The translations under genes were made by a program, and so were the position numbers. From positions 1 through 30,109 of the IMG/VR virus record IMGVR_UViG_3300008517_000159: a stretch of 30,109 nt of DNA, one strand, 5' to 3'. This stretch comes from a virus. Of the stretch, positions 6,172-28,883 are shown one piece after another. Position 1 is the first letter of the stretch. Every line of letters begins with the position of its first letter. The notes under the pieces were generated by a model, which made no database searches, was not told where the DNA came from, and saw nothing but the letters and a program-made list of their open reading frames with translations.

Positions 6172-7211
6172 GCGTCCATCCTCCGAGCTTGCTTCCTTTC
6201 CATCCGCTTCTTCCAGAATTCATTCTTTTGTTCCTGGAGTTTTTCTTCCTCCTTGCTGATCTGCTTCCGCGTTTCCTTCTCCACGATGGTTAATTTATTG
6301 TCGAGCTGTCTATTAATCTCTTCAGTGAGCTTTTTATAAATCCTCTGGACTGGAGTTTCCTGATTAGTTCCGTAGACTTTATTTAAGAATAAATGATGAT
6401 TGCTTACGAGCTCTCCTGTAAGTAGATCTATGACTTTGATTCCTCCTTCAGCTTTCGTCATATAGATTCCGAAGCGGATTCCAGTCTTCTTGAAATAGTG
6501 GAGCCAGCTTAAGCGCTTCCGTCCTTTCGAAGAACGGAGAATCTCGTACTCGTCTTTATGTGGTTTTTTATCATGATTCGCGTGGACTGTCGGAGTATAG
6601 ATGACTTTCCACTTTCCCTGATCCTTGAGATCCAGGAAGAATTGAAGATGCTCATGGACAATTTTGTATTCCGAGTCCCAGGGATTATCCTCCCAGCATT
6701 CTCTCCTCATCATAAACCAGTTCATCGCGAGATCGCAGTAATGGTATTTGATTCCTTTGTGATTCTTCCATTTGATCTCATCGTATTCCTTCATGACATA
6801 GAATTTTTCGAACTTCCGGAGCTCGTGCTCGTAGTGCCAGTCCTGTCCATTCGTGTTAAGCATTCCTGCAGCGAGCCCAGCTTCCGGATGAGCGAGGAGG
6901 AGCGTCTTCCAGTTTTCGAGTCGACTCCTCTCAGTGAAGACGAAATCATCGTCGCAGATCACCATGTATTTTTCTTTGGATGCTATCATTCCGATATTCC
7001 GAGACAGAGCGAGTCCGGAATCATAAGGAAGTCGGATCAGATTGCATTCGCTTTGTCGTAGGAATCTTTCTTTCGCATAGCTTGTCTTCCCCTGATCTAC
7101 GACATAAATATTGATATCAGGATAAAATTGCCGAATACTTTGCACGCACTTAAAGAGCACGTCATCGCGGATAAAAGTAACTACTATAATTCCGACGTCA
7201 TTAAGCTTCAT
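6168..7211 (-). CDS. Family-2-type glycosyltransferase (GT-A fold)
   Basis: The 347-residue protein starts at ATG 7211 with AGGAG nine bases upstream. An in-frame upstream ATG would overlap the sulfotransferase heavily. It begins with a GT-A core (VGIIVVTFIRDDVLFKCVQSI), then YVVDQGKTS, DSGLALSRNIGMIAS and the metal-binding DDDF (87-90) after YMVICDDDF. A later KIVHEHLQFFLDLKDQGKWK provides the expected acidic/His-rich acceptor region, resembling N-acetylgalactosaminyltransferase-like GT2 enzymes. The C-terminal 80 residues are charged coiled-coil. The stop overlaps the LicD-like gene by ATGA. It probably adds a sugar to a virion or host glycan. Confidence 0.85.
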   Translation of the reverse strand: MKLNDVGIIVVTFIRDDVLFKCVQSIRQFYPDINIYVVDQGKTSYAKERFLRQSECNLIRLPYDSGLALSRNIGMIASKEKYMVICDDDFVFTERSRLENWKTLLLAHPEAGLAAGMLNTNGQDWHYEHELRKFEKFYVMKEYDEIKWKNHKGIKYHYCDLAMNWFMMRRECWEDNPWDSEYKIVHEHLQFFLDLKDQGKWKVIYTPTVHANHDKKPHKDEYEILRSSKGRKRLSWLHYFKKTGIRFGIYMTKAEGGIKVIDLLTGELVSNHHLFLNKVYGTNQETPVQRIYKKLTEEINRQLDNKLTIVEKETRKQISKEEEKLQEQKNEFWKKRMERKQARRMDA

Positions 7212-8007
7212 TATTCTTTTCTCCTTTCTTTTGCTGCAGCTCGCGGATCTGCTGTTCCTTGCTCTCGAAGAAATGATCTTGAGCGGATTTTGTAGGATCC
7301 TGTCCTCGAGCTCCCCAGTCTTCAATGATCCTCTTGAATGTTATCGCAGGATCTTCCTGGATTGCGTTCATGGTTTTTCGCGGATGGAAAAAATTATCTG
7401 GGAACTTTTGCGGAAGTTCGTGCTCGATCTCGAAGTGTGCGAACATTTTTCGATACTCCTCCGGATCCGAGATCTTCCGAAAGTCAAAGTCGTATGTCTT
7501 GTCAAATTTATCTTTCCACAGAAGGAAACGCTCGCGGATTTCGAAGCACTGCCAGAGAGAGATCTCGTGGAAGCCGAGTCCTTTTCTTCCTCGCATGAGA
7601 TTCTTTTGCCACTGAGGTTGTAAGTGCCAGCTCATGTCATGACTCGGGAAAGTTTTTTTGAAATAGCTCATCGTGACTTCGATCGGATTCCGATGGAGAT
7701 AAATTACATAGAGCGGACGGAATTCTTTTTTATAGACGACGAGATGGAGATAGCTTTTTATAAACATCTGATTCGATTCGAAATAATTTCCTTCTTTTGC
7801 ATCTCCTGAGATCTGGAGGAGTTTTGTGCGCAGCTCCTCTCTCGAGCTTTTATTCATTCCGCATTCGTTATTCACTTCTCGGAGAGTCTGTCCTGCGCAG
7901 TATGGGACTGGCTCATGGAAGCTTGGATATTTTGTGAAGTACTTCCAGACAGCAGTTAGGAATTTTGTTCCGCAGCGTCCAGTTGAAGCGACAAAAATAA
8001 ACGCCAT
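7201..8007 (-). CDS. Sulfotransferase-family protein
   Basis: The 268-residue protein resembles PAPS-dependent sulfotransferases, which transfer sulfate to sugar or other acceptors. The N-terminus FVASTGRCGTKFLTAVW (5-21) is a 5'-phosphosulfate-binding loop (S/TGRCGT) following a beta strand. VIYLHRNPIEVTMSYFKK (101-118) is the 3'-phosphate-binding motif (LHRNP..V..S). A later KTYDFDFRKISDPEEYRKM segment resembles the family's C-terminal strand and helix. The C-terminus is charged and helical. It opens a four-gene cassette and its stop overlaps the glycosyltransferase start by 11 bases. The acceptor is unknown. Confidence 0.8.
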   Translation of the reverse strand: MAFIFVASTGRCGTKFLTAVWKYFTKYPSFHEPVPYCAGQTLREVNNECGMNKSSREELRTKLLQISGDAKEGNYFESNQMFIKSYLHLVVYKKEFRPLYVIYLHRNPIEVTMSYFKKTFPSHDMSWHLQPQWQKNLMRGRKGLGFHEISLWQCFEIRERFLLWKDKFDKTYDFDFRKISDPEEYRKMFAHFEIEHELPQKFPDNFFHPRKTMNAIQEDPAITFKRIIEDWGARGQDPTKSAQDHFFESKEQQIRELQQKKGEKNNEA

Positions 8008-10796: not shown

Positions 10797-11873
10797 TTAT
10801 CCGTGAGTAAGTTTCTCGATCAGCACGATCGCATTCACGTTCTCAACAGTGAAGTCACAGCGGATGGAATAGAAGAAGTAGTTCGCTTCATCCGAAGCTT
10901 GTCTCTCAGTCTCGATCTTGATCTCTCTCTGGATTCCCCAGATCAGATTCATCCAGTGCGTGAGCATGGCGTCGCAGTAGTTTCCTGCGTCGAGCTTTCC
11001 TGCAGCGTCAAGCGTGATCGGCATCTGCGGAACGGACACGAGTTTGACTTTTCCGTAAGCATACTCTTCTCCAGCTTTTCCGGTGATAACAGTGTCTCCG
11101 AGAGCAGTCGCTCGCTTTGCCAAAGCATCGAGATAATCCTGTTCGACGTTGTCATTCTGGAAGAATCTTAACTGAGAGAGTCCTCCTTTCTTTTTGTACT
11201 TGGAGGGCATTGTCCGGATCGCTTTGCTATATTTATATTCCTGATCGTATGGAGCAGCAGCTTCTCTCTCAACTATCTTCCCAGCTCTCGCGAAGTCCGC
11301 AGTCGCGTCCAGGACATAGGATCCTCCGGAGACTTCATTGTAATAAGCTTGTCCGACTGCAGAATGAGTGATGACATAGCGCCATCCATCCCACATTGAG
11401 CGAATATCATCTGGAGCAAATCCTCCGAGCGCGTGCGTATCTGAAATATAAGCAGCTTCCTCGACTTCATTCGCGACCTGAGACGCGACCATTTTCATAA
11501 CATGATCCGTAAATTGATCGTCTGTTTCGACTGTGATATCTTCCAGATCATCGTCATAGATCACGACACAACCTCGAGCTTTTTTGGTCGCCAGCGTGAT
11601 CGTGTTGGATCCGAATTCCTTCTTATAGTCGGAAGTTCCGAATGTGTTCGCTGGTTTAAGGAAGCGTCCGGATCCGAATCCGAGTCCTTGAATATTCTTC
11701 TCGCTGTTCTTCATCTTCACGATCCTGCAGTTATTCTTCAGCACGCTCTCATCGACCACGTAATCGATAAAGCGATCAGCTTCCTCCGGTTGCAGCGTGA
11801 GCGATGGGAGAATAGTCAAAGCTTTCTTCATCCGCTCCTTATTTTTCTTCAACAGATTTTTGTTCGTTCTCAT
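10797..11873 (-). CDS. Major capsid protein (HK97-fold)
   Basis: The 358-residue protein follows the scaffold gene behind AGGAGG. It resembles HK97-fold capsid proteins of PBSX/P2-like type: a helical N-arm (NLLKKNKERMKKALTILP), then a segment with GRFLKPANTFGTSDYKKEFGSNTI, the ARGCVVIYDDDLEDITVE strand, a helix DHVMKMVASQVANEVEEAAYI (spine-helix-like) and a C-terminal MPITLDAAGKLDAGNYCDAM ... IWGIQREIKIETER typical of the A-domain and receptor-like end. No separate protease site is evident, although the N-terminal arm is a candidate for removal by the XkdF domain. It is the best candidate for the most abundant virion protein. Confidence 0.9.
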   Translation of the reverse strand: MRTNKNLLKKNKERMKKALTILPSLTLQPEEADRFIDYVVDESVLKNNCRIVKMKNSEKNIQGLGFGSGRFLKPANTFGTSDYKKEFGSNTITLATKKARGCVVIYDDDLEDITVETDDQFTDHVMKMVASQVANEVEEAAYISDTHALGGFAPDDIRSMWDGWRYVITHSAVGQAYYNEVSGGSYVLDATADFARAGKIVEREAAAPYDQEYKYSKAIRTMPSKYKKKGGLSQLRFFQNDNVEQDYLDALAKRATALGDTVITGKAGEEYAYGKVKLVSVPQMPITLDAAGKLDAGNYCDAMLTHWMNLIWGIQREIKIETERQASDEANYFFYSIRCDFTVENVNAIVLIEKLTHG

Positions 11874-11919: not shown

Positions 11920-12624
11920 TTAATCGCTGTCTTTAGGAGCAGCGAGAGAAAAGCTCCACGATCCTTTTTTCTTGACGTCCTCGTCTTCCAGATCTTCATC
12001 TTCTTCAGCATCATTTCCTTTGAGAGACTTCTTCACTCCTTTCTGTTTTGCGATCTTGTTGACAGTCTTCGTCAGGCTCTCGATTTTCTCCATGAGCTCA
12101 CTGTCTTCCTTCTTGATTTTCTTTTTGCTCTTGTCCTCGTCGTCGTCGTCTTCCTCATCGTCTTCTTCTGGATCGTCATCCGCTTTCTTCAGATCTTTAA
12201 GAGTGTCCATAATCTGATCGAGCTGCTTCTCAACGTCGCTCTTCTGTGCGCTTTCTGGAATAAGTCCCTTCAGAAGCTTCAGAGCTTCCGGAGCTTTTTC
12301 GAGCAGCGCCACGATTTTTTTGAGTCTCGAGACTGTATCCTTCGAGAGTTTTGCTCCAGCTTTCTTCACGTCCTCGTCGTCGTCGGCTTTTTCTGCAGCG
12401 TATCCATAAGACGCGAACTTCGCGAGCGTATTGATTGCAGTTTTGACGTCATCGGGATATTGGCCTTTGTACTTACTCAGGAGAGAAAGTGCTCCTTTCA
12501 GAGCTTTTCCTGCTTCCGGAGGAATCTTCTCTTCGGCTTTTTCGACCAGCTCGAGCTCTTCTTCTGTGAGCTCCTCGTCGTCTTCCTCCAGAAAAGTTTT
12601 TAAGATTTCAGAAAGTGTTTTCAT
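11920..12624 (-). CDS. Probable nested scaffold product from internal start
   Basis: Codon 89 of the scaffold frame is an ATG preceded by AAAAAAAGGAGAACGCGG, a Shine-Dalgarno AAAGGAG at seven bases. It begins just after the zinc ribbon and a KKRRTR stretch. Translation from here would give a 234-residue, purely acidic helical protein lacking the N-terminal module. Nested scaffolds made from an internal start are known, for example Nu3 within lambda gene C. The ribosome site is as good as those of most genes in this window, so I consider the shorter product likely. Confidence 0.55.
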   Translation of the reverse strand: MKTLSEILKTFLEEDDEELTEEELELVEKAEEKIPPEAGKALKGALSLLSKYKGQYPDDVKTAINTLAKFASYGYAAEKADDDEDVKKAGAKLSKDTVSRLKKIVALLEKAPEALKLLKGLIPESAQKSDVEKQLDQIMDTLKDLKKADDDPEEDDEEDDDDEDKSKKKIKKEDSELMEKIESLTKTVNKIAKQKGVKKSLKGNDAEEDEDLEDEDVKKKGSWSFSLAAPKDSD

Positions 12625-12888
12625 CCGCGTTCTCCTTTTTTTAAAAGTGATCTCAGTGTCGGAGCTTAATAAATTTTCTCCGCACTCAGGACACTCCTCG
12701 CTCGCACTCTTTACAAAGTCGACGAGAGCTTCCTGATGACCACAGGACGGACAGGAGATAATTCCATTCGGAATAGTCCGGACTTTCTTATCCACGTCCG
12801 CTTTTCGGAATAGGAACTTCCTTTTCGTTGCTGGAACGTCGACGAGAGAGATCTCGTCTAGCTCGATATCTTCAAGCTTGAATGGCAT
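11920..12888 (-). CDS. Scaffold-like head protein with zinc ribbon and XkdF-like N-terminus
   Basis: The 322-residue protein lies immediately before the major capsid gene, where scaffolds are expected. The N-terminus LEDIELDEISLVDVPATKRKF resembles a strand seen in XkdF-type protease proteins. A zinc ribbon follows (CPSCG 46-50, CPECG 66-70). From residue 89 on it is helical, highly acidic and low in complexity (repeated EEDDEE, DDDPEEDDEEDDDDEDK) with lysine-rich coiled-coil segments, as in phage scaffolds. The start ATG has AGGAG six bases upstream. A strong internal start lies at codon 89 (see 11920-12624). The final segment KKGSWSFSLAAPKDSD may contact the capsid protein. Confidence 0.75.
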   Translation of the reverse strand: MPFKLEDIELDEISLVDVPATKRKFLFRKADVDKKVRTIPNGIISCPSCGHQEALVDFVKSASEECPECGENLLSSDTEITFKKRRTRMKTLSEILKTFLEEDDEELTEEELELVEKAEEKIPPEAGKALKGALSLLSKYKGQYPDDVKTAINTLAKFASYGYAAEKADDDEDVKKAGAKLSKDTVSRLKKIVALLEKAPEALKLLKGLIPESAQKSDVEKQLDQIMDTLKDLKKADDDPEEDDEEDDDDEDKSKKKIKKEDSELMEKIESLTKTVNKIAKQKGVKKSLKGNDAEEDEDLEDEDVKKKGSWSFSLAAPKDSD

Positions 12889-13221: not shown

Positions 13222-16110
13222 TTATTCGACTTTCTCCTTTTTCCTCCGATGAGCGACTCCAGCCATGGAGAAGCCAGTGAGCTCTCCGTCCTTCACTTTC
13301 TTCCACAGCGCAGCGTCGCGGATTCGGATAATCAGGATCCAGGATCCTTTTTTGATTTTTTCTTTTGCGATCTCAAGATCCTGTGGAGCGATATAGTTTT
13401 CTAAGATATTTATTTTCGAAGAGATTGCGATTCCTTCATGCTGCAGCTTGAATCTCCTAGCGTGCTCCATGTAATAATAGCAAGCTTGTCGGATCTCCTC
13501 TTCAGTGGAGAAGTCTCCTTGCGAGTCCTCCTCCTTTGGCTCGTATACGATTCCTCCGACGATCTGCTCGTCCTCCTTCACTTTGAAGATCGGAACTGTA
13601 TCCGGAAGTCTCTTCTGAATCGTCTCGTCATAGTCAGTCTCCTTGAGTCTCGACAGCATCCAGACGCGCTTTCCTCCTTCTACTGGAACGAAAGCAAAGA
13701 GATAATTTCCTGTCAGATATCTATTCTTGAAGCGGATCTTCTTCGCGTGCTCATCCGCAAGATAGATCTCCCAGTGAAGCTTGTCCATCTGGATCATAGA
13801 AGCATACTGATTCGCGCTGGCTCCGGATTCTCCTGGTTTAAAAATATGGACAGATCGCTCTCCGATCAGCATCCATCCGAGAGATCCTCGCACGACTTTA
13901 GTCTTCGTCTCTCCAGCTCGCGATTGCTTCCATGCAAAGCGAAGCTTTCCTTGAGTGTGAAGCTTCTTGAGCTTCTGGAGTCCGGAGATATTTCCGATCA
14001 TGATCTCGCCACCTTCCCAGAAGTTCTCTCCTTCTCTATGCAATCTCATGTCAATGTGAGCTCCATGCTCTCCGATCGCTGCATGGAGAGTGTTCTGCAG
14101 CTTCGAAGGATCCTGTCTCGCGATCATGATCTTTTTCTCAACGCTCTTTAGATCTTCCGCTTCTTCATCGCTCAATCCCATAATATGAATCTGGATCACT
14201 GCAGATCCTTTGTCTCCAACTTTAAAATCGATATTTCCGAATTCGGATCCTTTTCCTTCGTCGTCCTTATGGAGCTGTCCGTATCCTGGACGCTCTCTCC
14301 TTCTCATCTGTCCCCCACACTTAGGACACTCGAGATCTATGCAGTGCTCTTCAGTCTCAATCGTATGTCCGCATTCAAGACACTCGCAGAGAAACTTCTC
14401 TTCAGCTTTTGTCCTCTTCAGCTTTGCGAGAGTCTTCGCTTGCTCCTTTGTTGTCAACGCTGTTCCTCGAGGTTTTAAGGAACGCACGATCGGATTATCC
14501 CATGTAAAGGAATTTTTCTTCTCGTCGTACTTCACTTCAGCGACAGCGATCTCCAGAACGTCTCCGACTTTCGCTTTGATCTTCGTCGCGTATGTCCGTC
14601 CGATCGGAGCTCCATCCTGGATCTCGCATGTATAGATCCATCCTCCTCCTTCCTTCGATTCGACTTTCACGACTCGAGCTCGGATCTCCTTCATGTTCTT
14701 GAACTTCGCCCAGTCCGGAGTTGATCCTTTCAACGGATACTTTGAATTGACAGCTTTACACATAGCTCCTTCGGAATGCTTTTCCTCCGAATGCTTTTTT
14801 ACTGCAGCGCGGAATCGAGCTTCAGTCTTCGCAATCGTGGGGACAACTTTCTCCACATTGAGCTCGTCGACTTTAGAGAAAATCTGCGATAGAGAATCCT
14901 GACGACTTCGCCATTCATTGTTATCAAGCGGAGTGTTATGGTAGTAGAGACAGTCGAAACAGAAGATCTTTGCTTTGAAAGCTGGAGGATCTTTCGACAT
15001 TATATAAGTCGGCATGTCCTTCCTGTCGATCTTCCCACCTTCTGAGCTGTAGACTAGCAGCTCTCCATCCAGGACAAAATTATCCTTGAAGGACTGAATC
15101 TCCTTCTTAAGATCCGGAAGACGTTCTGAGAGATCTCGCTTCGCGTCTTCTGAAAAGATCTTCACGTCCTTATCATGCTTATGGATCTGGACACGGAATC
15201 CGTCGAACTTCGTCTCCACTGCGACTCCAGGATCCGGAAGATATCCGGACGCCCAGATCTTGACAAGCTCATCGATGGATCCGAACTCATGCTTTCCGTA
15301 TCCTCCTGCAGACTTGAGTGGAGTGAAAGGACGTCCGAGCGTGATTGACGCTTTCTCAAACTTTCTGCAGATTCCATCTAGCGTCTCCTCATCTCCGCAG
15401 ATCAAACAGCGAGGATGACCATTCTTGTGAGTCCACTTCGCAGGCATAAAAGGATGAGGAAACTTCGCTTGTTCTGCGTTCCTCCGGATCCTCTCGCTCT
15501 CTTCCTCGTATTCTTTGTGCTCCTTCATCTTCCGGTCAAGCTTCTTCGCTTTTGAGATATCCATTTCCTTGACTCGCTTGATCTCCATAAGATCTTTAGG
15601 ACGGAGCACTAGATCAAAGAGAGAGATATAGGAGGAGTGGGGCCCCGCAGCGTGATAGATAAATTCAATATCTTTTTTCACATGCTTTTGAAGAGCTCGT
15701 CCCAGCTTCAGCTCCAGTGTTTCATCTCTCGCTTCTTCGTTGAATCTAAGAACGACGTCTATATCTTGCGCTTCTTCCGGATTCCGGACAAAGGATCCTG
15801 CGATTGAGCAAAAGTCCGGAATGATAACGAGATCTCCGAATTCGGAAACAGAAAATTTGTAATTAGACTTATTGAAAATATAGCTCTCAATCGTATTCAG
15901 CTTTTTGTAGTAGATTCCTCTCTTTGACATTTCCTTTGTCAGGATTTTATATTTCTGCAGAAGATAATTTCGCCCTAGCACTCCGGAAGTTTTGAGCTCG
16001 TTTCCATGGAAGTTTGATTTCCAGAGCTGATCGATTATCGTCCTCAAAGGAGGAAGCTCTTCACTTCTTTCTCTATCGAGTGACTTTGTCGTGATCTCTT
16101 CTATTCGCAT
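13222..16110 (-). CDS. Nucleotidyltransferase - ATP-dependent DNA ligase - XkdF prohead protease fusion
   Basis: The 962-residue protein occupies the place of the prohead protease. Residues about 90-180 resemble a nucleotidyltransferase (AGSFVRN, then D116-I-D118). A small Cys motif follows (RCLICGDEETLDGIC). Residues 296-471 contain all covalent ligase motifs: KFDG (301-304, adenylated lysine K301), LDGE (347-350), FCFD (383-386), EGAMCK (447-452) and WAKFK (467-471). An OB-like region follows to about 550, then a Cys4-type ribbon (C577/C580 and C595/C598). Residues about 630-805 recall the LigD 3'-phosphoesterase (HIDMRL at 685). Residues 848-952 match XkdF-type proteases (VYEPKEEDSQGDFST, YIAPQDLE, GSWILIIRI, DGELTGFSMAG). 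The start is ATG 16110 behind AGAGG. An upstream in-frame extension would overlap the methyltransferase by 185 bases. Confidence 0.88.
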   Translation of the reverse strand: MRIEEITTKSLDRERSEELPPLRTIIDQLWKSNFHGNELKTSGVLGRNYLLQKYKILTKEMSKRGIYYKKLNTIESYIFNKSNYKFSVSEFGDLVIIPDFCSIAGSFVRNPEEAQDIDVVLRFNEEARDETLELKLGRALQKHVKKDIEFIYHAAGPHSSYISLFDLVLRPKDLMEIKRVKEMDISKAKKLDRKMKEHKEYEEESERIRRNAEQAKFPHPFMPAKWTHKNGHPRCLICGDEETLDGICRKFEKASITLGRPFTPLKSAGGYGKHEFGSIDELVKIWASGYLPDPGVAVETKFDGFRVQIHKHDKDVKIFSEDAKRDLSERLPDLKKEIQSFKDNFVLDGELLVYSSEGGKIDRKDMPTYIMSKDPPAFKAKIFCFDCLYYHNTPLDNNEWRSRQDSLSQIFSKVDELNVEKVVPTIAKTEARFRAAVKKHSEEKHSEGAMCKAVNSKYPLKGSTPDWAKFKNMKEIRARVVKVESKEGGGWIYTCEIQDGAPIGRTYATKIKAKVGDVLEIAVAEVKYDEKKNSFTWDNPIVRSLKPRGTALTTKEQAKTLAKLKRTKAEEKFLCECLECGHTIETEEHCIDLECPKCGGQMRRRERPGYGQLHKDDEGKGSEFGNIDFKVGDKGSAVIQIHIMGLSDEEAEDLKSVEKKIMIARQDPSKLQNTLHAAIGEHGAHIDMRLHREGENFWEGGEIMIGNISGLQKLKKLHTQGKLRFAWKQSRAGETKTKVVRGSLGWMLIGERSVHIFKPGESGASANQYASMIQMDKLHWEIYLADEHAKKIRFKNRYLTGNYLFAFVPVEGGKRVWMLSRLKETDYDETIQKRLPDTVPIFKVKEDEQIVGGIVYEPKEEDSQGDFSTEEEIRQACYYYMEHARRFKLQHEGIAISSKINILENYIAPQDLEIAKEKIKKGSWILIIRIRDAALWKKVKDGELTGFSMAGVAHRRKKEKVE

Positions 16111-16114
16111 TGCA

Positions 16115-16993
16115 TTACCTCTTTTTAAGGAATAGAGCTCCGAAAGTGTATGGAGCATAATTGTATCGCGGATGACCCAGATATGTCTTTCCGTTGTCAT
16201 AGAGCTCCTGATTATATTGGATCTCAAAGAGTCCTTCATCCAGCAGGAAGCACTTCCGGAGATCTTCCGGAGTAGACATGAGCTGATCCTTCCATTCAAA
16301 AGGATCCTGGGGATCCGGACGGAAAATCGCAGGACGAGGATTCTTATAGTCGAACGTGATCGTCAGCGTTCCTCCAGGGACTAGCGTCCGATGATATTCT
16401 CTGATCGCACGCTGGCGCTGGTGAATCGTGAGATGCTCCATGACGCAGATCGAGAAGATCGCGTCAAAGGATCCAGGAGGAAAGATCTCGAGCTTTGTAA
16501 TATCCTGGACGATCGAGGAGCTCCAATGAGGAGTCTGAGGATCATTACTCAGCCATGTCTTGATCTGCGCGATCCGCTGCGCTTGCTCCACGAGCTTCTC
16601 ATCCAGCTCGCAGGAGAAGACTTTATATTTCCGGAGCTCGGAGAGATACGCCCAGAATAAGGAGCACGCTCCTCCTGCGTCCAGGATCCACCATCCATCC
16701 TTGAGCAGAGTATGCTTCAGAGCCCAGAAGATCTCCCAGTATAGGAACCAAGGAAAGTGCGGATCGTCTGCAGCTCCAGGAATAGGAATGTATCCTCCTG
16801 GAGTTCCGCAGTTCCGCGAGTCTTTTTCCGGATTTGCTGGGACGTCAGTTAAAGTTCCATGCCATCCGGAAAGATGGAGATTGAGATTTTGGAAACTCCG
16901 GATCAGGAGATTGAGCTCTTTTATAAGCTTCGCAGCGTCCTCATGTAAAAAAAGATCATCTCGATCCATGGTTTTATTTATATGTTCAATCAT
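16115..16993 (-). CDS. Class I SAM-dependent methyltransferase
   Basis: The 292-residue protein has the Rossmann methyltransferase core. Motif I is WILDAGGACSLF (102-113), an acidic end of strand 2 follows (FSCELDEKL), and SFDAIFSICVMEHLTIHQRQ gives motif IV and post motifs (about 174-193). A REYHRTLVPGGTLTITFD segment then marks strands 5-6. These are typical of small-molecule or sugar/lipid methyltransferases rather than DNA methylases, because no DPPY or PC motif is seen. It lies between the MuF and ligase-protease genes, an unusual place, and abuts both (ATGA overlap upstream, 4-base gap downstream). The substrate is unknown. Methylation of a virion sugar or of DNA-attached groups is possible. 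Confidence 0.8.
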   Translation of the reverse strand: MIEHINKTMDRDDLFLHEDAAKLIKELNLLIRSFQNLNLHLSGWHGTLTDVPANPEKDSRNCGTPGGYIPIPGAADDPHFPWFLYWEIFWALKHTLLKDGWWILDAGGACSLFWAYLSELRKYKVFSCELDEKLVEQAQRIAQIKTWLSNDPQTPHWSSSIVQDITKLEIFPPGSFDAIFSICVMEHLTIHQRQRAIREYHRTLVPGGTLTITFDYKNPRPAIFRPDPQDPFEWKDQLMSTPEDLRKCFLLDEGLFEIQYNQELYDNGKTYLGHPRYNYAPYTFGALFLKKR

Positions 16994-17125: not shown

Positions 17126-18733
17126 CTATCCTCCTGTTGAAACTTTTGTTCTCTTGTAATTATATTTGAATGTCTCGGCTATATACGTGACAGTTTCATG
17201 TGAATGCTCTTCGTTTAATTCATCTGTTATTTGTTCGATGAGTTTATTTTTCTGCGCTGGAGGAAGCGAATCTCCTTTCGCTGCTCTGAATTTTTCAAAA
17301 AATTTTGTATCATATTTCGAGAAGAGAGATCTCCATTTATTCCTCTGTATCGATGGAGCGAGACTATTCCATTTATCTCCAGTGGCGGGAGCGATCGTGA
17401 ATCGGTATTTCGTAGAAGTGACAATCATCTCTCCTATGTTAAGCTCTGTCGCGAACTTGATATCAGCAGGAGAGAAGGACGCAGAGACAGGATGATTATG
17501 GACAAAAGCAGCAGCGTTTCTTATTTCCGCGCACTCTTCCGCAGTATATTTGACTGAGCGACGTCCTCCACTCTTCCGGAAGATTATGTTTCCAGCATTG
17601 TCAAGAGCTGCGCTGTGCTCTCTCGGACTTCTGGCAAATTTAGCCATGATCTCAGCGATCGCGTTTTCGATTCCTCCTTTCAGTCCTCCTGGAGGTTTGT
17701 ACGTCAGCGGATTCTTGAGTCCTCCTTTCGGATGACGCAGGATCCAATCGCAGCGTCCGTTCGGATGGACTGGGATCACTCCGTATGCTTCCTCGATCTT
17801 ATAAGTCGTTCCATCCATATCCGCACAGATCGGACAAGCTCCATGCGCAGCGAAGAATCGGACTTCCTGAACTCCAACTGATTTATATCCGACAAGAGAT
17901 CCTTGAGCTTGAGCGATCGCAGTCTCAGTCCTCGCGATCATTATCCTTCTGGCTCTCAGAAGTTTATTACGATATCTCTGCGCGATCGCGTTCGATTTAT
18001 CCGCTGCCATTCCTGCAGCTTGTCGCTTCACGTTCGCGTTCACTACTGCAGCAGCCCAGCGATCCGAAAGCGTCTGGATCATGGTAAGGTCTCGAGCGAT
18101 GTGTGGCATGGATAAGCCGTTCTCGATCCCAGTCTTTACGGTCGACCGGACAGCTTTCCGGATCTCATCTGTGACGCTCGTGATGAGATCCCCTCCTATC
18201 TTGTTGATTGCAGCGACAGCTTCAGGTTTCAGAACGTCGAACTGAGCTTGAATCCCAGCAAGTCGATAAGCAGCGTTTCCTCCATCGACAAAAGCAGCAG
18301 TATACCCAGCTTTGAGAATTGCAGCTCCTTCCGTCTTAATCTTCTCGAGATTCATCGTCCCAAAGATCCGAGCTGTGACTTTGTTCGCGACTGTGGAAGG
18401 ATCCGCTTTAATCCTGAATGTCTTCGCGCTGGTGATCTTCTTTCCTGAGACATAGAAGTCCATCTTCTTAGACTGGGAGAGTCTCAGTTCTTTCCGGATC
18501 GCACGCTGGAATTCCGGAATTAAAACTTCTCTTTCGAACTGGATATAAAGTTTCTTAAATTTCGGAATGTTTTTATTCTGGATCCTGTCATAGATTCTCT
18601 TCACAAAACTCCGGATCGGAGCGGACTTATAGATCTTTTCAATCAGCATCGATGCTTGCTCAGTATCCACGAGATGAGCTTCCTTTATGATCGACTCAAT
18701 CTTCTGGATCCGCTGCTGCAGCTCAGTCGCCAT
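17126..18733 (-). CDS. MuF-type head morphogenesis protein with C-terminal HNHP domain
   Basis: The first 340 residues are a phage Mu F / SPP1 gp7-like minor head protein. Family landmarks are RRIMIARTETAIAQAQG (262-278), FFAAHGACPICADMDG (293-308, CxxC) and PVHPNGRCDW (321-330). These proteins sit at the portal and are packaged in the head. From about 365 to 535 there is an extra domain: an N-terminal beta region, then AAFVHNHPVSASFSPADI (408-425) and a beta-rich tail. H412-x-H414, S421 and D424 resemble the metal ligands of JAB/JAMM-like enzymes, with one residue fewer than the classic H-x-H-x7-S-x2-D spacing. MuF proteins are known to carry C-terminal effector or toxin domains. Whether this one is an enzyme is unproven. 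The start has AGGAG upstream. Confidence 0.88.
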   Translation of the reverse strand: MATELQQRIQKIESIIKEAHLVDTEQASMLIEKIYKSAPIRSFVKRIYDRIQNKNIPKFKKLYIQFEREVLIPEFQRAIRKELRLSQSKKMDFYVSGKKITSAKTFRIKADPSTVANKVTARIFGTMNLEKIKTEGAAILKAGYTAAFVDGGNAAYRLAGIQAQFDVLKPEAVAAINKIGGDLITSVTDEIRKAVRSTVKTGIENGLSMPHIARDLTMIQTLSDRWAAAVVNANVKRQAAGMAADKSNAIAQRYRNKLLRARRIMIARTETAIAQAQGSLVGYKSVGVQEVRFFAAHGACPICADMDGTTYKIEEAYGVIPVHPNGRCDWILRHPKGGLKNPLTYKPPGGLKGGIENAIAEIMAKFARSPREHSAALDNAGNIIFRKSGGRRSVKYTAEECAEIRNAAAFVHNHPVSASFSPADIKFATELNIGEMIVTSTKYRFTIAPATGDKWNSLAPSIQRNKWRSLFSKYDTKFFEKFRAAKGDSLPPAQKNKLIEQITDELNEEHSHETVTYIAETFKYNYKRTKVSTGG

Positions 18734-22388: not shown

Positions 22389-22621
22389 TACTTTGTCCTT
22401 TCGAACGCTGTCCGTTTTACAATCAGATAGACTGGAGGGTGCGTGTTCTCTTTCGTCCGGATATTCAGCCATGCTCTCCCCAGCAGCAGCGCAGAGGCTC
22501 TCTCCTTGAAGCTCATCCTCCAGCAGCTCAAGACCTGGGATCCGTCAGTGAAGACAGGAAGATCCGCGCAGTCCGGAGCGACGAGCTTTGTGTTCGCTTC
22601 CTCAAAATTGACTGGTTTCAT
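22388..22621 (-). CDS. Small hypothetical phage protein
   Basis: This 77-residue protein begins MKPVNFEEANTKLVAP and contains the segment SCWRMSFKERASALLLGRAWLNI, a pattern I associate with small conserved phage proteins of unknown function. The start overlaps the portal stop (ATGA), with GAGGAGG upstream. The stop TAG shares one base with the GTG start of the next gene. It is probably cotranslated with the portal. No function is assigned. Confidence 0.75.
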   Translation of the reverse strand: MKPVNFEEANTKLVAPDCADLPVFTDGSQVLSCWRMSFKERASALLLGRAWLNIRTKENTHPPVYLIVKRTAFERTK

Positions 22622-24216
22622 TTCGTATCCTCCTCTTCTAGCGTCTGGACTCTAGACTCGAGATTCTGCGTGATCCGAAGCAGCTCTTCCTCCTCCTTTT
22701 CCAGATCCTCCTCTCCGACTTTGACAAGTCCTTTCTCAATGTATCGATCGTTTCCTCCTTCTTTCTCGTCGATCGCTTCTCGTCCGTCGACAGCTCGCAG
22801 CTCGTTCACTCTCAAAGCAGCGTTCCGGAAGAGCTTGATCGCTCTCGCGATCTCCGAATCTTTATTCCTGATATCCGGAGGAATCAACTTGAACAGCATC
22901 GGAACTTCCTTATCCTCCCCATCTCCTTCGACCAGAGTCGGAAGGATCTGGAAGTTGAAGATGTTCTCGACTTTCTGCTGTAGCGTCTCTACGCTCGAGG
23001 AAACATAGATATCAGTCAGCTCTTCTGCGAGATTTCCTCCAAGAGCTCCTTCTTCTGCAATCGCCACTCGGTAAGGAGGCATTGAATAAGCGACCAGGAT
23101 CTCATTCCTCATCTGCTTGTAATAGTCCTTCATGAAGTCTCCTTCCTTGACTTCGTTCATGAGAGGAATCCATTCGAGTCCTTTTCTCTCCTCCTTCGTG
23201 AGTCCAATCTCGTCCTGCTGTGGAGCTTGGAGCACTAGAGTCTTATACGCGTTCTCGGATCCTCTGATCTCGGATTCAATAAACTCCTTTATCTCTGTGT
23301 CGGATCCTTCTTTCCAGTCTCCATACAGGATCACGAGAGCTGCCGGGACTCCGTAATTTTCGAAGAACGAAAGATTGAAGTCTCGGATTCCGATCATGGA
23401 GATGACAGCTCCAAGAGCTCCCAGAATATTCGGAACTCCATAGTAGTCAGATCTCACATAGTAGTTCACGTCCATAATCATTTCACTTGCAAGATCCTCT
23501 TCTTTTGCTTCTTTCTTTGATTCCGCGCCAGTCTCCGCGACAAGATCTTCCTTCTCTCCGAATCTCTTAAACCAGACACGCTTCCGCTGTCCTTTGACAT
23601 AGCGAGTCTGACAGTATTTCTTCTCCGATTCGTGAACGCGGATCGTATAAGCTGGGACGTGAAACATCGATCCGATATCTCCGTCTCCAGTTCTCGAAAG
23701 TTCCATGTTCATCCATCCGGAGGATCCCCAGTCAACGATGAGGCGCTTTATCATTTCGATAAGATCGTAGTCGCCGTCCGCTGGACGATCGAGGAGCTTC
23801 TTCGCTTTCTCCTTGAATGACTTCGCTTTCTCATCTTTCTCAGGATCGACTCCTTCCTTTGGCTCGAACTTGTATCCTTGTCCAGCAACGTCTTGCGCAA
23901 GCTGATTCACTGTCCGCATGTAATAGATGTTAGACTCGTAATAAGTGAGGAATCCTTCAGGATCATAAGGAGGGGCCATGAGTCCTTTATCTTTCCAGTA
24001 GGACTTATCCTCCTTGAGCTGCTTCGAAGTCCTCTTTCCTTCTGTGCGCTTTGAGATCTGGACAAGCTTTCCTTTTGTCGTGTAAGCGAAGACTCGCCCT
24101 TGTCGGAGTTTCGACTGCTCGGAGATCTTGTCGTGAATCTGCTCCGGAGTGAGCGGACGTCCTTTTTGGACGATCGTCATCTTCTTCTTAAGAGCGCTTT
24201 TCTTTTTCTCGGCCAT
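22618..24216 (-). CDS. Portal protein (PBSX XkdE / HK97-like)
   Basis: The portal forms the dodecameric DNA gate at one capsid vertex. Family features include TYYESNIYYMRTVNQLAQDVAGQGYKFE, then DYYGVPNILGALGAVISMIGIRDFNLSFFENYGVPAALVIL in the centre, then RNEILVAYSMPPYRVAI followed by AEELTDIYVSSSVETLQQKVENIFN. These are typical of PBSX-type portals. The start is set at ATG 24216 rather than the GTG six bases upstream because AGAGGAGGTGACA precedes this ATG perfectly. The protein is 532 residues long and has an acidic C-terminal coiled coil. The stop overlaps the next start by ATGA. Unlike most phages, the MuF gene does not follow directly but lies about 4 kb downstream. Confidence 0.93.
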   Translation of the reverse strand: MAEKKKSALKKKMTIVQKGRPLTPEQIHDKISEQSKLRQGRVFAYTTKGKLVQISKRTEGKRTSKQLKEDKSYWKDKGLMAPPYDPEGFLTYYESNIYYMRTVNQLAQDVAGQGYKFEPKEGVDPEKDEKAKSFKEKAKKLLDRPADGDYDLIEMIKRLIVDWGSSGWMNMELSRTGDGDIGSMFHVPAYTIRVHESEKKYCQTRYVKGQRKRVWFKRFGEKEDLVAETGAESKKEAKEEDLASEMIMDVNYYVRSDYYGVPNILGALGAVISMIGIRDFNLSFFENYGVPAALVILYGDWKEGSDTEIKEFIESEIRGSENAYKTLVLQAPQQDEIGLTKEERKGLEWIPLMNEVKEGDFMKDYYKQMRNEILVAYSMPPYRVAIAEEGALGGNLAEELTDIYVSSSVETLQQKVENIFNFQILPTLVEGDGEDKEVPMLFKLIPPDIRNKDSEIARAIKLFRNAALRVNELRAVDGREAIDEKEGGNDRYIEKGLVKVGEEDLEKEEEELLRITQNLESRVQTLEEEDTK

Positions 24217-24227
24217 TGTCACCTCCT

Positions 24228-25154
24228 CTATTCTGAGCGATAGACTATCACTTCAGATTTTCTTTGAAGATCAAAATCAGATACAGCAAAGAGAATCTCC
24301 TCTCCATCGAAGACGTAGATCTTATCTGATCTCTGGAGCTTTATATTCTTTGAGATCTCGAAGCATTTTCCAGTCGATACGAGATGGAGTCGAGATGGAG
24401 CACTCATCTGCGCAAAGTCTTTCGACCATTTTGCATCCAGTACAAGAGCAGCTCCAGCGAACTTCTGCGGAACGCAGACAAATAAGCGGACTTGTCCTTC
24501 TTTTATCCGCTCCATGAGCTTGTTGAATCCTTTAACTACTTCCAGAGATGAATCTTTCCACTTCAGCAGGATCTCGTAGTGGATCCCAGTCTCCATCTCA
24601 TAGCGATCCGGATCATCCGGAAATTCAGGATCCTCCTCCTCGTTTCTCCTCTCCAGCGATTTGATCGTATCCTTCATAATGACATTCTCTCTCACCATTC
24701 CTGCAGGATCGCAGACAGTCTCGAGACTATGGATATAACTCCGGACAGCTTCAGGCAGCTCATTGACATTCCTTGAAGTTGGGAGCCAGGATCCAGGAAT
24801 GCAAAAGAAGTCACTAGGAAACTTAAAGCCCTCCACTTCAGCGGAGAATGTGATAGGAGCTAAAGTCCGGAGGATCTCGCGGATCTTCTCTCTGAATTTT
24901 TTCCTATCAGGAAGACAAGGACTATTGATAGCGCTCCTCATCATATTGTAGATCCTGTCGATCGCTTTATCCTCGGACTCGTCTAGTTTTTTTGCTTCCT
25001 TGATATCCATTTTGATCACCTCCTCTTGCAGTGCAGAACGACTGCTTTTTTTTACAGTGTCGAAAAATGCGAGCATGTTTTCTCTGGAGTATCCATAGAG
25101 ATCGACGTTTGAATCTGTCCGCATTCTCCTTAATAAATCTCTGAATTTATTCAT
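24228..25154 (-). CDS. Hypothetical protein between terminase and portal
   Basis: The 308-residue protein is not recognised. Its first 85 residues are rich in basic and acidic helices (IKMDIKEAKKLDESEDKAIDRI). The middle has FKFPSDFFCIPGSWLPTSRNVNELP, and the C-terminus is predicted to be beta-rich (KIYVFDGEEILFAVSDFDLQRKSEVIVYRSE). It overlaps the terminase stop by ATGA and is followed within a few bases by the portal. This fixed position in the packaging block suggests a function linked to packaging or the portal vertex. No catalytic motif is evident. Confidence 0.75.
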   Translation of the reverse strand: MNKFRDLLRRMRTDSNVDLYGYSRENMLAFFDTVKKSSRSALQEEVIKMDIKEAKKLDESEDKAIDRIYNMMRSAINSPCLPDRKKFREKIREILRTLAPITFSAEVEGFKFPSDFFCIPGSWLPTSRNVNELPEAVRSYIHSLETVCDPAGMVRENVIMKDTIKSLERRNEEEDPEFPDDPDRYEMETGIHYEILLKWKDSSLEVVKGFNKLMERIKEGQVRLFVCVPQKFAGAALVLDAKWSKDFAQMSAPSRLHLVSTGKCFEISKNIKLQRSDKIYVFDGEEILFAVSDFDLQRKSEVIVYRSE

Positions 25155-26455
25155 CTTACGACTCGTCCTTGTCGCTTCTCTTTGACTCTGGAGTGAGCGA
25201 TCACGATCGCGTCCAGTCTGTCCGGACTCATCTTGATTCTCTTCTTAAACTCCTCTTTTGATTCGATCCGGATCTGTCTGTCTACAGTTGGGACTCGATA
25301 TCGGATCCTCATCTGCTTTGCCAGCTTGTCATCCAGTGGAAGATCTAGAGCGTGGAGATCGTTCCGGAGCAGGAAGAAGTCTTCTGCTCTTTTGTTTTTA
25401 TACATAGGATCCAGCGCAGCGTCAGAGGATCTATACGCGAGGAGCTTTCCTCTGAATCCGCGCTGCAGGAGCCATGGAAGCTTCCGCTTAATTCTATCGT
25501 AGACTCCAGCTCCGAATCCGATTATATCGATCTTCACTTCCGCTTCTCTGTGATTAATCATCTCGTCTATCACTTTATCTGCGAGGAGCATGAGATCAGC
25601 TAGTCGATAGATCCGAAACGTGTACTTGTTCGCACGCTTGAACGCGAGGACTGATTCGTCTGGACCCTCGCGAGCGACGTCGACTCCGATCGCGCTCACG
25701 TTCGCGAGCGCTCGAGACTGGCGTCTCATCGCTTCCTCTACAAGAGAGATAGGAAAGACGTGAGACTCTTCAGAGAGTACGTCCCAGTCTCCTCTCATCC
25801 AGGATTTAAAAAGCTCAGCAGGAAGAATCTTTTTCATTCCCAGGAGATATCCTTCAGGATTATATGGATTGTCTTCCGGAAGAGCAGGAATAAAATCGTG
25901 ATCCTCGAGCTCCTGATCGATCCAGCGGATCTTAACCCAATTAGAAGCAGGATTCGCAGTGCAGAGTCCTTTGTGAATGATTCCTGGAAGATTCAAAGAA
26001 AGCCGAGTTGACAGCATAAGGAAATGATCTTCAGTCGTCTCTTCAATCTGATCTACTCCGAACCAGCCGAGCTCCATTGACTTTAGCTTATCGAGTCCGC
26101 GCTGATCGTCTCCGAGTCCTCCGTAATACATTTCGGATCCGTTCTTGAATTTGAAGAGCTTCTCGGATTTATTATGAAAAAGATAAAGAGCAGGATCCAG
26201 CCACTTCTCCACTTCTTTCAATGTGGAGCGCTTGAATTCCTCTAGCTCATGTCTGCAAAGATATCCTCTGTTTCCTGGATACAGCGTCGAGAGCTGGATT
26301 CCGGAATTCACGAGCCAGCATGTTTTTCCTCCTCGCATAGCTCCTCCATACATCGGATACTTCACAGGAGAGAGATGAGCTTTGAGCTGGCGGGGCTCTG
26401 GAACGTACGACTCCACTCTTACCACTTTGAATCCGGATTCCTGGATTCCGATCAT
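25151..26455 (-). CDS. terL: Terminase large subunit (ATPase and nuclease)
   Basis: This is the motor that translocates phage DNA into the prohead and cuts it. The Walker A motif is GGAMRGGKT (residues 37-45), and the Walker B region is MELGWFGVDQIEE (127-139), with DQ in place of the commoner DE. The C-terminal RNase H-like nuclease begins at SAIGVDVAREGPDESVLAF (about 254-272, D259 as first metal ligand), continues with VKIDIIGFGAGVYDRI, and ends with PDRLDAIVIAH (411-421, D414 as the expected third acid). The 434-residue length is normal for the family. The stop overlaps the next gene start (ATGA). Confidence 0.95.
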   Translation of the reverse strand: MIGIQESGFKVVRVESYVPEPRQLKAHLSPVKYPMYGGAMRGGKTCWLVNSGIQLSTLYPGNRGYLCRHELEEFKRSTLKEVEKWLDPALYLFHNKSEKLFKFKNGSEMYYGGLGDDQRGLDKLKSMELGWFGVDQIEETTEDHFLMLSTRLSLNLPGIIHKGLCTANPASNWVKIRWIDQELEDHDFIPALPEDNPYNPEGYLLGMKKILPAELFKSWMRGDWDVLSEESHVFPISLVEEAMRRQSRALANVSAIGVDVAREGPDESVLAFKRANKYTFRIYRLADLMLLADKVIDEMINHREAEVKIDIIGFGAGVYDRIKRKLPWLLQRGFRGKLLAYRSSDAALDPMYKNKRAEDFFLLRNDLHALDLPLDDKLAKQMRIRYRVPTVDRQIRIESKEEFKKRIKMSPDRLDAIVIAHSRVKEKRQGRVVR

Positions 26456-26686: not shown

Positions 26687-27316
26687 TTAATCCAAGTACT
26701 CCTCGCTGGGAAGCGGATCCTTCTCCTTTTCTTTCGCTTTCTTTTTTGCGGATCGAGGAACAGGCATGTGAGAGATATACTGGACGAGAGATCCTTGCGT
26801 GTCGATCTCAGTGATTTGTCTGTCCGTCATTCCGAGCCAATTTTTCGCAAGGAAGATCCAGGATCCAGGAGTCAAGATCGGAACGAAAGCGTAGAAGAGC
26901 GCGTTCCTCTTTTGTTCGAATAATTCCATCGCTTCTTTCAGCTTCGGATATTTTGCCATCCAGTTATAGAGCGTGGATCTATGGAGCCCCATGAAGTCCG
27001 CGAGTGATTCGAAGGAGCAGAAGGAGAAGAAGTTCCGGATCTCAAGAGTCTCAGTGAAAGCTTCAATCATCGCAATTACTTTCTCCTCGTTGTATTTTGT
27101 CGGACGTCCTGCTTTGTGCCTTTTGATTTTCTGCTGAAGTGATTTCTCGTACTCATCTCGGAAGCGTTGGAGTGCTTCTTTCTTGATCCGGAGCTCTTCC
27201 TTCTCGGATATCTTATAAGAGGAGCGCGGAGCTGCTCTGTCCGTCGCGGTTCCCTTCCTCTTCGACGTGGCAGCGTTTCCGCGCTTCCTCTTTATTTTGT
27301 TTTTTAGAGCTGTCAA
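26687..27316 (-). CDS. terS: Terminase small subunit
   Basis: This protein probably recognises the packaging site and recruits the large terminase. The N-terminal 75 residues are basic and disordered-looking. AGRPTKYNEEKV then opens a helix-turn-helix region with SLADFMGLHRSTLYNWMAKYPKLKEAMELFEQKR, and the end has a PGSWIFLAKNWLGMTDRQ segment. The order RPTKY, then W..KYP.L..A, then F.AKN..GM.D, is typical of phage DNA-packaging small subunits. The TTG start overlaps the upstream stop as TTGA, with AAGGAG 11 bases before it, so a slightly later start is possible. It is followed by a 58-residue ORF and then the large subunit. Confidence 0.85.
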   Translation of the reverse strand: MTALKNKIKRKRGNAATSKRKGTATDRAAPRSSYKISEKEELRIKKEALQRFRDEYEKSLQQKIKRHKAGRPTKYNEEKVIAMIEAFTETLEIRNFFSFCSFESLADFMGLHRSTLYNWMAKYPKLKEAMELFEQKRNALFYAFVPILTPGSWIFLAKNWLGMTDRQITEIDTQGSLVQYISHMPVPRSAKKKAKEKEKDPLPSEEYLD

Positions 27317-28230: not shown

Positions 28231-28883
28231 AGGCCTCCTCCAGGTTTCAGATGTTCCAGGATCTCGAGGATCTCGGATCCTTTGATCGTATTGACTTTCT
28301 TGTCTCCGATCCCCAGCGACCGCTTGACTTCCGCGAGCTGCTCGTCCGAGTCGCAGCGGATCGTGACAATCCTCCTGTCTCCTTTATCAATGAAGTTGAA
28401 CGACTCCTCCGGATAATTTTCATAGTCGATCATGGACTTCTGGACTTTGAGAGAGAATCCAGAAAGCGCCAGAGAGACGGATCCATCGTCACAGTAGTCC
28501 AGACACTCTTTGAGCTTCGGAAAGTTTGTCTGAGCGAGCTGAGCGATCCTGTTCGACGCAATACAGTAAAGGACAGCGTGCTTATAAGTGCGGAAAGGAT
28601 AGAGCTTCACAGGAACTTTCTTGAGTCCCAGCTCCTTCGAGATCCGGACGCGCTTGTGTCCTGCGACGATCATGAGTTTTTTGTCATGACGATAGACGAT
28701 GACGTCCTCTACAAAGCCCTGTCCCAGGATCGACTCTCGCAGCATATCCGTTCCAGCTTCCGTCTCCTGCGACGGATTGCCATCGAAAGGATGAAGATCC
28801 GAGATCTTCACATTGATATACTTTGATTTCTCCTGGAGCTCCAGAGTCTCCTTCGCGAATTTTAAGATCTCCTCTTTATCCAT
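28227..28883 (-). CDS. ParB-like nuclease-domain protein
   Basis: The N-terminal half matches the ParB/sulfiredoxin fold found in plasmid partition proteins and many phage proteins. It has ISDLHPFDGNP (about residues 27-37), then LRESILGQGFVEDVIVY, then the signature VAGHKRVRISKELGLKKVPV (about 73-92), where GHKR replaces the common GHRR or GERR motif. The C-terminal 120 residues are not recognised. In phages such proteins often lie just before the terminase genes, as here, and are thought to act on DNA, possibly as nucleases or CTP-dependent DNA-binding proteins. The start follows AAAGGAGGAGG. The stop overlaps the GTG start of the glycosyltransferase gene (GTGA). Confidence 0.85.
   Translation of the reverse strand: MDKEEILKFAKETLELQEKSKYINVKISDLHPFDGNPSQETEAGTDMLRESILGQGFVEDVIVYRHDKKLMIVAGHKRVRISKELGLKKVPVKLYPFRTYKHAVLYCIASNRIAQLAQTNFPKLKECLDYCDDGSVSLALSGFSLKVQKSMIDYENYPEESFNFIDKGDRRIVTIRCDSDEQLAEVKRSLGIGDKKVNTIKGSEILEILEHLKPGGGL

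Follow-up and report, generated by a model that had tools for sequence, protein, structure and literature searches.

The virus record IMGVR_UViG_3300008517_000159 of IMG/VR, from an environmental tailed virus, was analyzed over positions 1 to 30,109 (hereafter the window, 30,109 nucleotides). Its minus strand encodes a 962-aa protein in which an ATP-dependent DNA ligase domain and a LigD-type 3′-phosphoesterase (PE) fold are joined, together with a putative nucleotidyltransferase (NTase), to a C-terminal XkdF capsid protease. We propose that this protein is a capsid maturation protease carrying a LigD-like end-repair enzyme at its N terminus, and that it would be virion-associated and delivered with the genome, a reading to which we give about an even chance. 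The proposal builds on what is visible in sequence or fold, namely the open reading frame (ORF), the ligase domain, the PE fold, the His/Ser pair of XkdF, the head-gene neighborhood, and the recurrence in distant viruses; virion entry, cleavage, and activity are what we infer.

Domain organization of the fused protein

The ORF runs as a single uninterrupted frame from an ATG at position 16110 to a stop codon that ends at 13222, and a purine-rich stretch 5′ of the ATG is a possible ribosome-binding site. An earlier sequence-only reading of the window had placed the ligase and XkdF in the same frame, and no frame error separates them. The same protein is encoded with 100% identity on a second contig (L002, 53.9 kb), which matches the window DNA at 99.93% identity over 22,886 bases, and residues 391-962 are encoded, again 100% identical, on a third contig. 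The single frame and the identical protein in the second and third contigs rule out a chance or frame artifact of one assembly. The parts of the protein are as follows.

13222-16110, minus strand: one ORF of 962 aa, in the order NTase, DNA ligase, zinc-ribbon-like motif, LigD-type PE, XkdF protease
15886-16062, minus strand: helical N-terminal element, residues 17-75 (aligned with relatives, EM.RRG..H; predicted helices, with a predicted local distance difference test score, pLDDT, of mostly 67-80)
15601-15843, minus strand: putative Pol-beta superfamily nucleotidyltransferase, residues 90-170 (GS 105-106, D116, D118, D166; sub-threshold)
14695-15225, minus strand: ATP-dependent DNA ligase adenylation domain, residues 296-472 (Pfam and family profile; motif I K301)
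14476-14694, minus strand: presumed ligase OB domain, residues 473-545 (position after the adenylation domain; aligned across the family)
14293-14388, minus strand: zinc-ribbon-like CxxC...CxxC, residues 575-606 (CLEC 577, CPKC 595)
13639-14211, minus strand: LigD-type 3′-phosphoesterase fold, residues 634-824 (H642, H685, D687, R689; structure model)
13597-13626, minus strand: linker between PE and XkdF, residues 829-838 (low confidence, pLDDT <50)
13243-13587, minus strand: XkdF (Peptidase_S78_2) capsid protease, residues 842-956 (H891, S948; Pfam and PHROG)

Residues 296-472 match Pfam DNA_ligase_A_M with an E value of 5.1e-26 (92.1 bits against a cut-off of 26.2), and the ligase motifs quoted in the sequence-only reading were all found at the residues given there (KFDG 301, LDGE 347, FCFD 383, EGAMCK 447, and WAKFK 467). 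With a profile built from 11 NTase-ligase regions, matches were obtained to 45 distinct sequences of the Protein Data Bank (PDB) at E<=0.01 (best 1.3e-26), all of them named DNA ligase or DNA ligase-like. The match of the window ligase to the RNA_ligase family had an E value of 1.7e-4, against 5.1e-26 for the DNA ligase family. We assign this region as an ATP-dependent DNA ligase domain, with nick sealing as its predicted activity. Pfam zinc-ribbon matches near residues 568-606 were sub-threshold.

For the PE, window residues 600-962 were modeled with AlphaFold2 from 28 aligned rows. The mean pLDDT of the model was 78, and within residues 634-824 most ten-residue blocks scored 81-97, the score falling to about 50 around residue 735. 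Foldseek against the PDB placed LigD phosphoesterase structures at ranks 1-6 and 8 (best E 5.8e-4). In VIA-align, the top entry was 3p43 (Z 12.5, rmsd 2.5, 122 aligned), followed by 3p4h (12.1), 3n9d (10.4), 3n9b (10.3), 5dmp (9.5), and 2lj6 (8.9); these first six rows are all LigD PE entries, and the seventh row has a Z of 4.3. When a profile of 12 PE segments was compared with PDB sequences, the best three matches were LigD PE chains (E 1.1e-4, 0.026, and 0.045). The PE of Pseudomonas aeruginosa LigD is described, in PMC8656161, as having metal-binding His42, His48, and Asp50, plus Arg52. H642, H685, D687, and R689 correspond to these residues by sequence and profile alignment, and the H-H-D-R set is kept in all 12 aligned PE segments, including that of the window. 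These metal-binding residues, together with a model whose nearest neighbors are LigD PE structures, agree with the LigD-like region of the sequence-only reading, and residues 634-824 are assigned a LigD-type PE fold on the basis of the model. Pfam LigD_N exceeded its cut-off of 31.1 bits in the whole PE ORF of a relative, L110 (37.4 bits); in the genome search the best stretch of L110 gave 21.3 bits, under the cut-off, and LigD_N was found in only two of nine records. A second PE-profile match follows the first in the PE-bearing ORFs of L107, L115, L116, and L129, and the metal-binding residues seem by eye to be missing from the second copy of L115.

The C-terminal part matches Pfam Peptidase_S78_2 (XkdF) over residues 842-956 (E 3.2e-31, 108.4 bits against a cut-off of 24), a sensitive profile match that upholds the XkdF identity given in the earlier reading, and in PHROG it is a head maturation protease (phrog_3017, E 9.5e-41). 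H891 and S948, which we take to be the catalytic pair, lie in columns invariant over five aligned XkdF domains, the window's included. We identify this part as an XkdF capsid protease, predicted to cleave head proteins. In a survey of 80 of 133 loci, which were drawn by one peptide pattern and are not a fair sample of XkdF proteins, two loci belong to the window's own virus; in the other 78 (one of them, L037, cut by a contig end), XkdF begins no later than residue 109, counted in the frame from stop to stop. The XkdF of the window is preceded by 841 residues. The XkdF profile found no convincing solved relative among PDB sequences (best E 0.68), and rows of the XkdF region in the VIA list were never above Z 4.3. 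In several Pseudomonas and Lactococcus phages, the XkdF protease bears the label DNA methyltransferase (L102:2890-3360, L008:2890-3939). These labels were considered as another enzyme-protease fusion and rejected, as gp54 of Pseudomonas phage K8 (156 aa) has only XkdF over the Pfam cut-off and matches no methyltransferase; the Lactococcus protein so labeled has a short N terminus, and the labels are likely misannotations.

The NTase is the weakest of the domain calls. Pfam DUF6932 matches residues 93-149 below threshold, with an E value of 0.0027 for the whole protein and 2.8e-4 for the region alone. Searched member by member, DUF6932 was found in 4 of the 11 aligned members (best 3.3e-6) and NTP_transf_2 likewise in 4 of 11 (best 1.1e-4). 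The best 60 of 74 PDB matches of the NTase profile (E<=5) were all family X polymerases (TdT, Pol beta, mu, and lambda). D116 and D118 are invariant in the 11 aligned NTase rows, and D166 is kept in seven. With moderate confidence, residues 90-170 are predicted to be a Pol-beta superfamily transferase; polymerase activity is not claimed. A helical element precedes the NTase in L014, L107, and L109 (H..H..EM.RRG..H) and weakly resembles Pfam Pyr_excise (E 3.4e-4 in L107, 0.0055 in L014, and 0.019 in L109).

Relatives and linkage to head genes

Relatives were found by homology, with the NTase-ligase profile (L014), two PE-profile searches, and separate searches (L096 and ANMV-1). After we had merged near-identical contigs, 22 contig groups were distinguished: window, L014, L115, L096, L107, L108, L109, L110, L111, L112, L116, L118, L119, L120, ANMV-1, L123, L124, L125, L127, L129, L130, and L131. 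Identity to the window is 19-34% in the NTase-ligase alignment, and over the 291 ligase columns of the tree the highest value is 35%. All three repair domains are present in 18 of the 22 groups, and the other four (L096, L108, L124, and L125) miss a part beyond the contig end. The repair domains share one ORF in six groups (window, L014, L115, L109, L131, and ANMV-1); in the other groups they are divided between adjacent ORFs or separated by as much as about 4.2 kb. Because the domain profiles were built with many of these loci, their E values are inflated; L123, L127, L129, L130, and L131, which are outside the profiles, still match all three parts. Per record, DNA_ligase_A_M was found once in 21 of 22 (over the cut-off in 20) and never more than once; the L125 record, whose contig begins inside the ligase, has no match.

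The architecture of the window protein recurs in related viruses. In L014, a different virus with 32% identity, a single ORF encodes all four parts (NTase, ligase, PE, and XkdF), and the single ORF of L115 has the order NTase, PE, degenerate PE, ligase, and XkdF. L114 differs from L115 by one mismatch and one gap (99.98% identity), and its XkdF is read in a separate ORF. The XkdF fusion was seen in 3 of 22 groups (window, L014, and L115), and L096, cut off by the contig end, may also be XkdF-fused. When 18 ligase regions were placed in a tree, the three XkdF-fused rows required three changes on the best tree and grouped together in 0% of 200 bootstrap trees; the well-supported branches force only one change, and L014 is a long branch. 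A single origin of the XkdF fusion is possible on this tree.

Head genes were called by PHROG, Pfam, or similarity to proteins so named in another group. In the contig stretches around the module, terminase, portal, MuF, protease, or capsid genes lie beside it in 16 of 22 groups. Most groups showed no XkdF fusion, and yet the module is located among the head genes. Its frame overlaps the end of the portal frame in L107 and L109 and begins four bases after the portal frame in L119; in ANMV-1 it follows a gene that Pfam calls portal (E 3.2e-22) and that the record annotates as MutT-like (L004:1913-3193). The terminase of L096 matches phrog_2 (E 4.1e-47). The protease downstream in L118 is of another family (phrog_976, E 1.7e-39), and that of L119 resembles it (E 1e-15). 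As to the fused relatives, the genes around the fusion in L014 are those of TerL, a protein joining portal and MuF, a capsid protein, and a scaffold-like protein (E 3.8e-6 to positions 255-347 of phrog_34096). The order in L115 is portal, minor-head/MuF-like protein, fusion, a gene with a short match to phrog_3017 positions 4-31, and a phrog_1623 capsid-type gene. Searches of whole records found one portal family in 7 of 22 and one terminase family in 10 of 22; the only gene gained in this way was a terminase in the L127 record, 12.8 kb away from its ligase. Because unfused groups, and L118 and L119 with a protease of another family, are also head-linked, the head position is not a mere consequence of the fusion. 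The repair set and the head block are steady and the protease fusion is variable, so that the enzyme is best explained as belonging to the head.

In the window, the gene order in the direction of transcription is TerL-portal-MuF-fusion-scaffold-capsid. The fused gene lies between the MuF and scaffold/capsid genes, the position of a prohead protease, as the sequence-only reading had it. The neighboring genes are listed below.

25151-26455, minus strand: terminase large subunit (PHROG 7.6e-19)
22618-24222, minus strand: portal protein (Pfam E 7.3e-12; PHROG 9.3e-34)
17126-18733, minus strand: MuF-domain minor head protein (Pfam E 1.1e-7; PHROG)
16115-16993, minus strand: SAM-dependent methyltransferase, directly upstream of the fused gene (Pfam E 2.7e-12)
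11920-12888, minus strand: scaffold-like gene, next downstream (phrog_3017 positions 258-391 of 402, E 7.5e-10)
10797-11873, minus strand: capsid protein-like gene (phrog_1623, virion structural protein, E 7.8e-57)

The scaffold-like gene (11920-12888) has a zinc-ribbon-like motif, and its N-terminal segment (ISLVD..A.KR.FL) resembles the N terminus of ordinary XkdF proteins. It looks as if an ordinary protease with its further C-terminal part were split here over two genes, the protease having gained a long N-terminal part. The same record has weak sulfotransferase-like, weak glycosyltransferase-like, and ParB-like genes at 7201-8007, 27313-28230, and 28227-28883, respectively, on the minus strand.

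Further domains accompany the module in some relatives. A metallo-beta-lactamase fold precedes the NTase in L109 (3543-6983) and L116 (3887-7543), and a D12 adenine methyltransferase precedes the NTase-ligase part in L119 (4738-7269). The idea that the metallo-beta-lactamase domains are an Artemis-like nuclease was found unsupported; the L109 domain is nearest to 6b9v and PhnP, and the L116 domain had no PDB match at E<=0.01. L111 (262-4290) shows LAGLIDADG and intein signals, and long interruptions inside the NTase-ligase ORF of L112 (2-2914) and L123 (2-4783) are perhaps inteins. As to the hosts, scans with exact short peptide patterns found no relative in genome contigs. TBP was found in 1 of 11 records (ANMV-1) and MCM in none of 11, DnaB in one of nine (the L115 record) and PCNA in none of nine. 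Pfam on ten large ORFs of the longer contig found a Gp3-like recombination-directionality family and no host marker.

Comparison with known systems

Bacterial and archaeal LigD (POL-PE-LIG) also combines a PE, an ATP-dependent ligase, and a nucleotidyl-transferring domain in one polypeptide, and the PE fold of the window matches the LigD structures 3p43, 3p4h, 3n9b, and 5dmp. In contrast to LigD, the window protein has a putative transferase of the Pol-beta type, is viral, and is fused to a capsid protease. No primase-type POL was present among the Pfam matches of the window at E<=1, a search that a very divergent one could escape. Because no such POL was found and no Ku was seen, LigD is not the right class for the window protein. 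The XkdF proteases of the PBSX, psiM2, and ICP1 type share with it the protease domain, the His/Ser pair, and the gene position before scaffold and capsid. Printed ordinary examples carry a further C-terminal part, whereas the scaffold-like part in the window is a separate gene.

Enzymes fused to MuF or portal domains are read, in passages of PMC5512222, as effectors that are packaged and injected. The polyvalent and MuF-fused effectors described in these passages resemble the window protein in that enzyme domains are fused to or lie beside portal, MuF, or head proteins and are proposed to be delivered, and, as in the polyvalent proteins of phages, several enzyme domains occur here in one polypeptide within a late-gene context. 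The window protein differs in its partner, a capsid protease, and in its payload, an end-healing and sealing set. Passages of the same source note a paucity of such packaged-effector proteins in archaea, and the three occurrences of ligases in that text are all RNA ligases in the part on 2H proteins. In Arthrobacter phage Mufasa8, gp3 (L104:2006-5008) has portal, NUDIX, and MuF domains in one 1000-aa protein.

Gp18 of Arthrobacter phage Salgado (L101:5260-6381) carries an RNA ligase annotation; it joins an N-terminal 2H phosphoesterase to XkdF, and its gene stands in the head block. It differs from the window protein in having one small 2H domain, with no match to a ligase or an NTase. Its name, length, and layout suggest that it belongs to phrog_14859 "RNA ligase". 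Matches in a viral structure library include proteins labeled zeta toxin domain protein. Because of these matches and the 2H-XkdF protein of Salgado, the joining of an enzyme to the protease is not in itself new. Passages of PMC4372165 describe ANMV-1 as a metagenomic virus that is putatively archaeal. Its protein AJP62006, annotated as ATP-dependent DNA ligase, carries NTase, ligase, and PE in one protein by a portal-family gene and is 26-31% identical to the window protein over the shared parts; unlike the latter, it had no XkdF domain that we could find, and it is annotated only as ligase. The term "ligase" does not occur in the main text of the 2015 paper on ANMV-1 (PMC4372165).

Two further viral systems are alike in part. 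PolX of Phaeocystis globosa virus, a Pol-beta core fused to a further domain, is according to PMC5537341 a viral Pol-beta-type domain joined with ligase activity (polymerase-lyase-ligase); it comes from a giant virus of a eukaryotic alga, and the title and abstract opening name neither a PE nor a link to the capsid. Mycobacteriophages Omega and Corndog use end joining for successful infection, as described in PMC7719229; there the phage supplies Ku and uses the LigD of the host, whereas in the window the ligase is viral and Ku was not found. Searched against 50,697 phage records, the NTase-ligase region of ANMV-1 matched only itself at E<=1e-5, and that of L096 had matches in 11 records, with ANMV-1 the sole one to cover 80% or more of the region. 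The window protein matched 51 records; the best 40 of the 51 matched mostly via XkdF, and ANMV-1 and SPbeta-type phages via the ligase. Among the matches listed in open PMC titles and abstract starts, none describes a ligase or a LigD PE fused to a capsid protease.

Proposed mechanism and alternative explanations

Here, we propose how the protein may act. The XkdF part would bring it into the prohead within the scaffold-protease core, and the unfused relatives would enter the prohead by virtue of their head-gene linkage. Maturation would then cut the disordered linker at residues 829-838, which the model suggests as a candidate release site, and the repair part would remain in the head, stay with the DNA, and be delivered together with it. 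During genome entry or shortly afterwards, and without Ku, the PE would convert blocked 3′ ends to hydroxyls, the transferase would fill or tail short gaps, and the ligase would seal nicks or the termini of the linear genome. Because no Ku was found, the enzyme may act on nicks, gaps, or cohesive ends that have annealed, and not on blunt breaks. Carriage into the prohead, release by self-cleavage, and action on the genome at entry are plausible, and this reading is strengthened by the fact that the module lies at head genes in relatives without the fusion.

Several points weigh against this proposal. Of the nucleotidyltransferase claimed earlier, the GS, DxD, and D residues are present, while its assignment is sub-threshold (DUF6932 E 0.0027) and the best PDB match of the profile has an E value of only 0.024, the listed matches being variants of four enzymes. 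Four of the 11 rows (L110, L116, L118, and L120) have Arg or Lys in place of the third Asp, and the NTase model is poor (mean pLDDT 60) and unfit for a fold search. As for the PE, the window protein has no Pfam LigD_N match at E<=1, and 6 of the 12 PE segments have one (best 1.2e-5). The stretch with the phosphate-binding His84 and Tyr88 of LigD is not reliably alignable and the equivalents were not placed, for which reason PE activity is not claimed. The sequence-only reading had called the repair module complete, which holds for the metal-binding residues of the PE and not for the sub-threshold NTase or for Ku, which was found in none of the 14 records searched (records that may be fragments). 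Furthermore, the relatives were found by homology and hence are not independent evidence of function, and no head gene was detected near the module in 6 of 22 groups (L111, L116, L125, L127, L129, and L130), whose neighbors were compared with only 26 query proteins.

A replication ligase would not be expected in a head gene block, and this bears on the explanation that the protein is a cytoplasmic polyprotein, namely the only ligase of the virus, serving replication or late repair, fused for co-expression and release, and not delivered. XkdF could cut the repair part free before or during assembly, and such a ligase occurs at most once in a record (once in 21 of 22). However, the unfused module is still in the head block in ANMV-1, L107, L109, L110, and L119, and we regard a cytoplasmic role as unlikely. 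Repair at the packaging stage, in which the enzyme would close nicks or gaps or dress terminase-cut ends in the prohead or at the portal and so prevent a stall, predicts the same anatomy as the favored delivery, and the module is near portal and/or terminase genes in 12 groups (window, L014, L115, L096, L107, L109, L110, L118, L119, L120, ANMV-1, and L131). The present data do not separate it from delivery at entry; the supply of ATP in a closing prohead would probably be a difficulty, and we consider packaging-stage repair rather unlikely.

Counter-defense or RNA repair, that is, the mending of DNA or tRNA cut by host nucleases early in infection, would fit the existence of the 2H-XkdF fusion and of the further fused domains, a D12 methyltransferase in L119 and a metallo-beta-lactamase in L109 and L116; delivered anti-defense effectors are a main interpretation of polyvalent proteins in passages of PMC5512222. 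RNA repair is opposed by the ligase itself (E 5.1e-26 for the DNA ligase family and 1.7e-4 for RNA_ligase, with all 45 PDB matches being DNA ligase or DNA ligase-like), and such a role appears improbable to us. Finally, the N-terminal part might be structural filler or a scaffold-like segment whose enzyme activities have been lost, given the divergent window PE without a Pfam match, the loss of the third NTase Asp in 4 of 11 rows, and the degenerate second PE copy in several relatives. The ligase motifs kept in the window and the H-H-D-R set in 12 of 12 PE segments make this highly improbable.

Beyond the favored reading of the window protein as a delivered protease-repair fusion, we suggest more tentatively that tailed viruses of a wide group, among them the putatively archaeal ANMV-1, have as a head component a LigD-like machine for end joining without Ku (Pol-beta-type transferase, DNA ligase, and PE), built into the protease in several lineages. 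Effectors whose carriage in phage heads is known or has been proposed include RNA polymerase, ADP-ribosyltransferase, and anti-restriction proteins. The theme of enzymes delivered from the head is thus known, and a LigD-like repair payload on it was not found reported; if the proposal is true, the head-linked set for DNA end healing and sealing is a payload class that we have not found described. The ligase-PE-transferase fusions are enzymes for study, and a gene labeled ligase on a virus contig can belong to the head block. If the proposal is true, genome-end repair would begin from enzymes delivered with the DNA, and the head-linked set would help explain, at the level of proteins, how a linear genome can enter with nicked or damaged ends and persist without having to wait for new synthesis or host enzymes.

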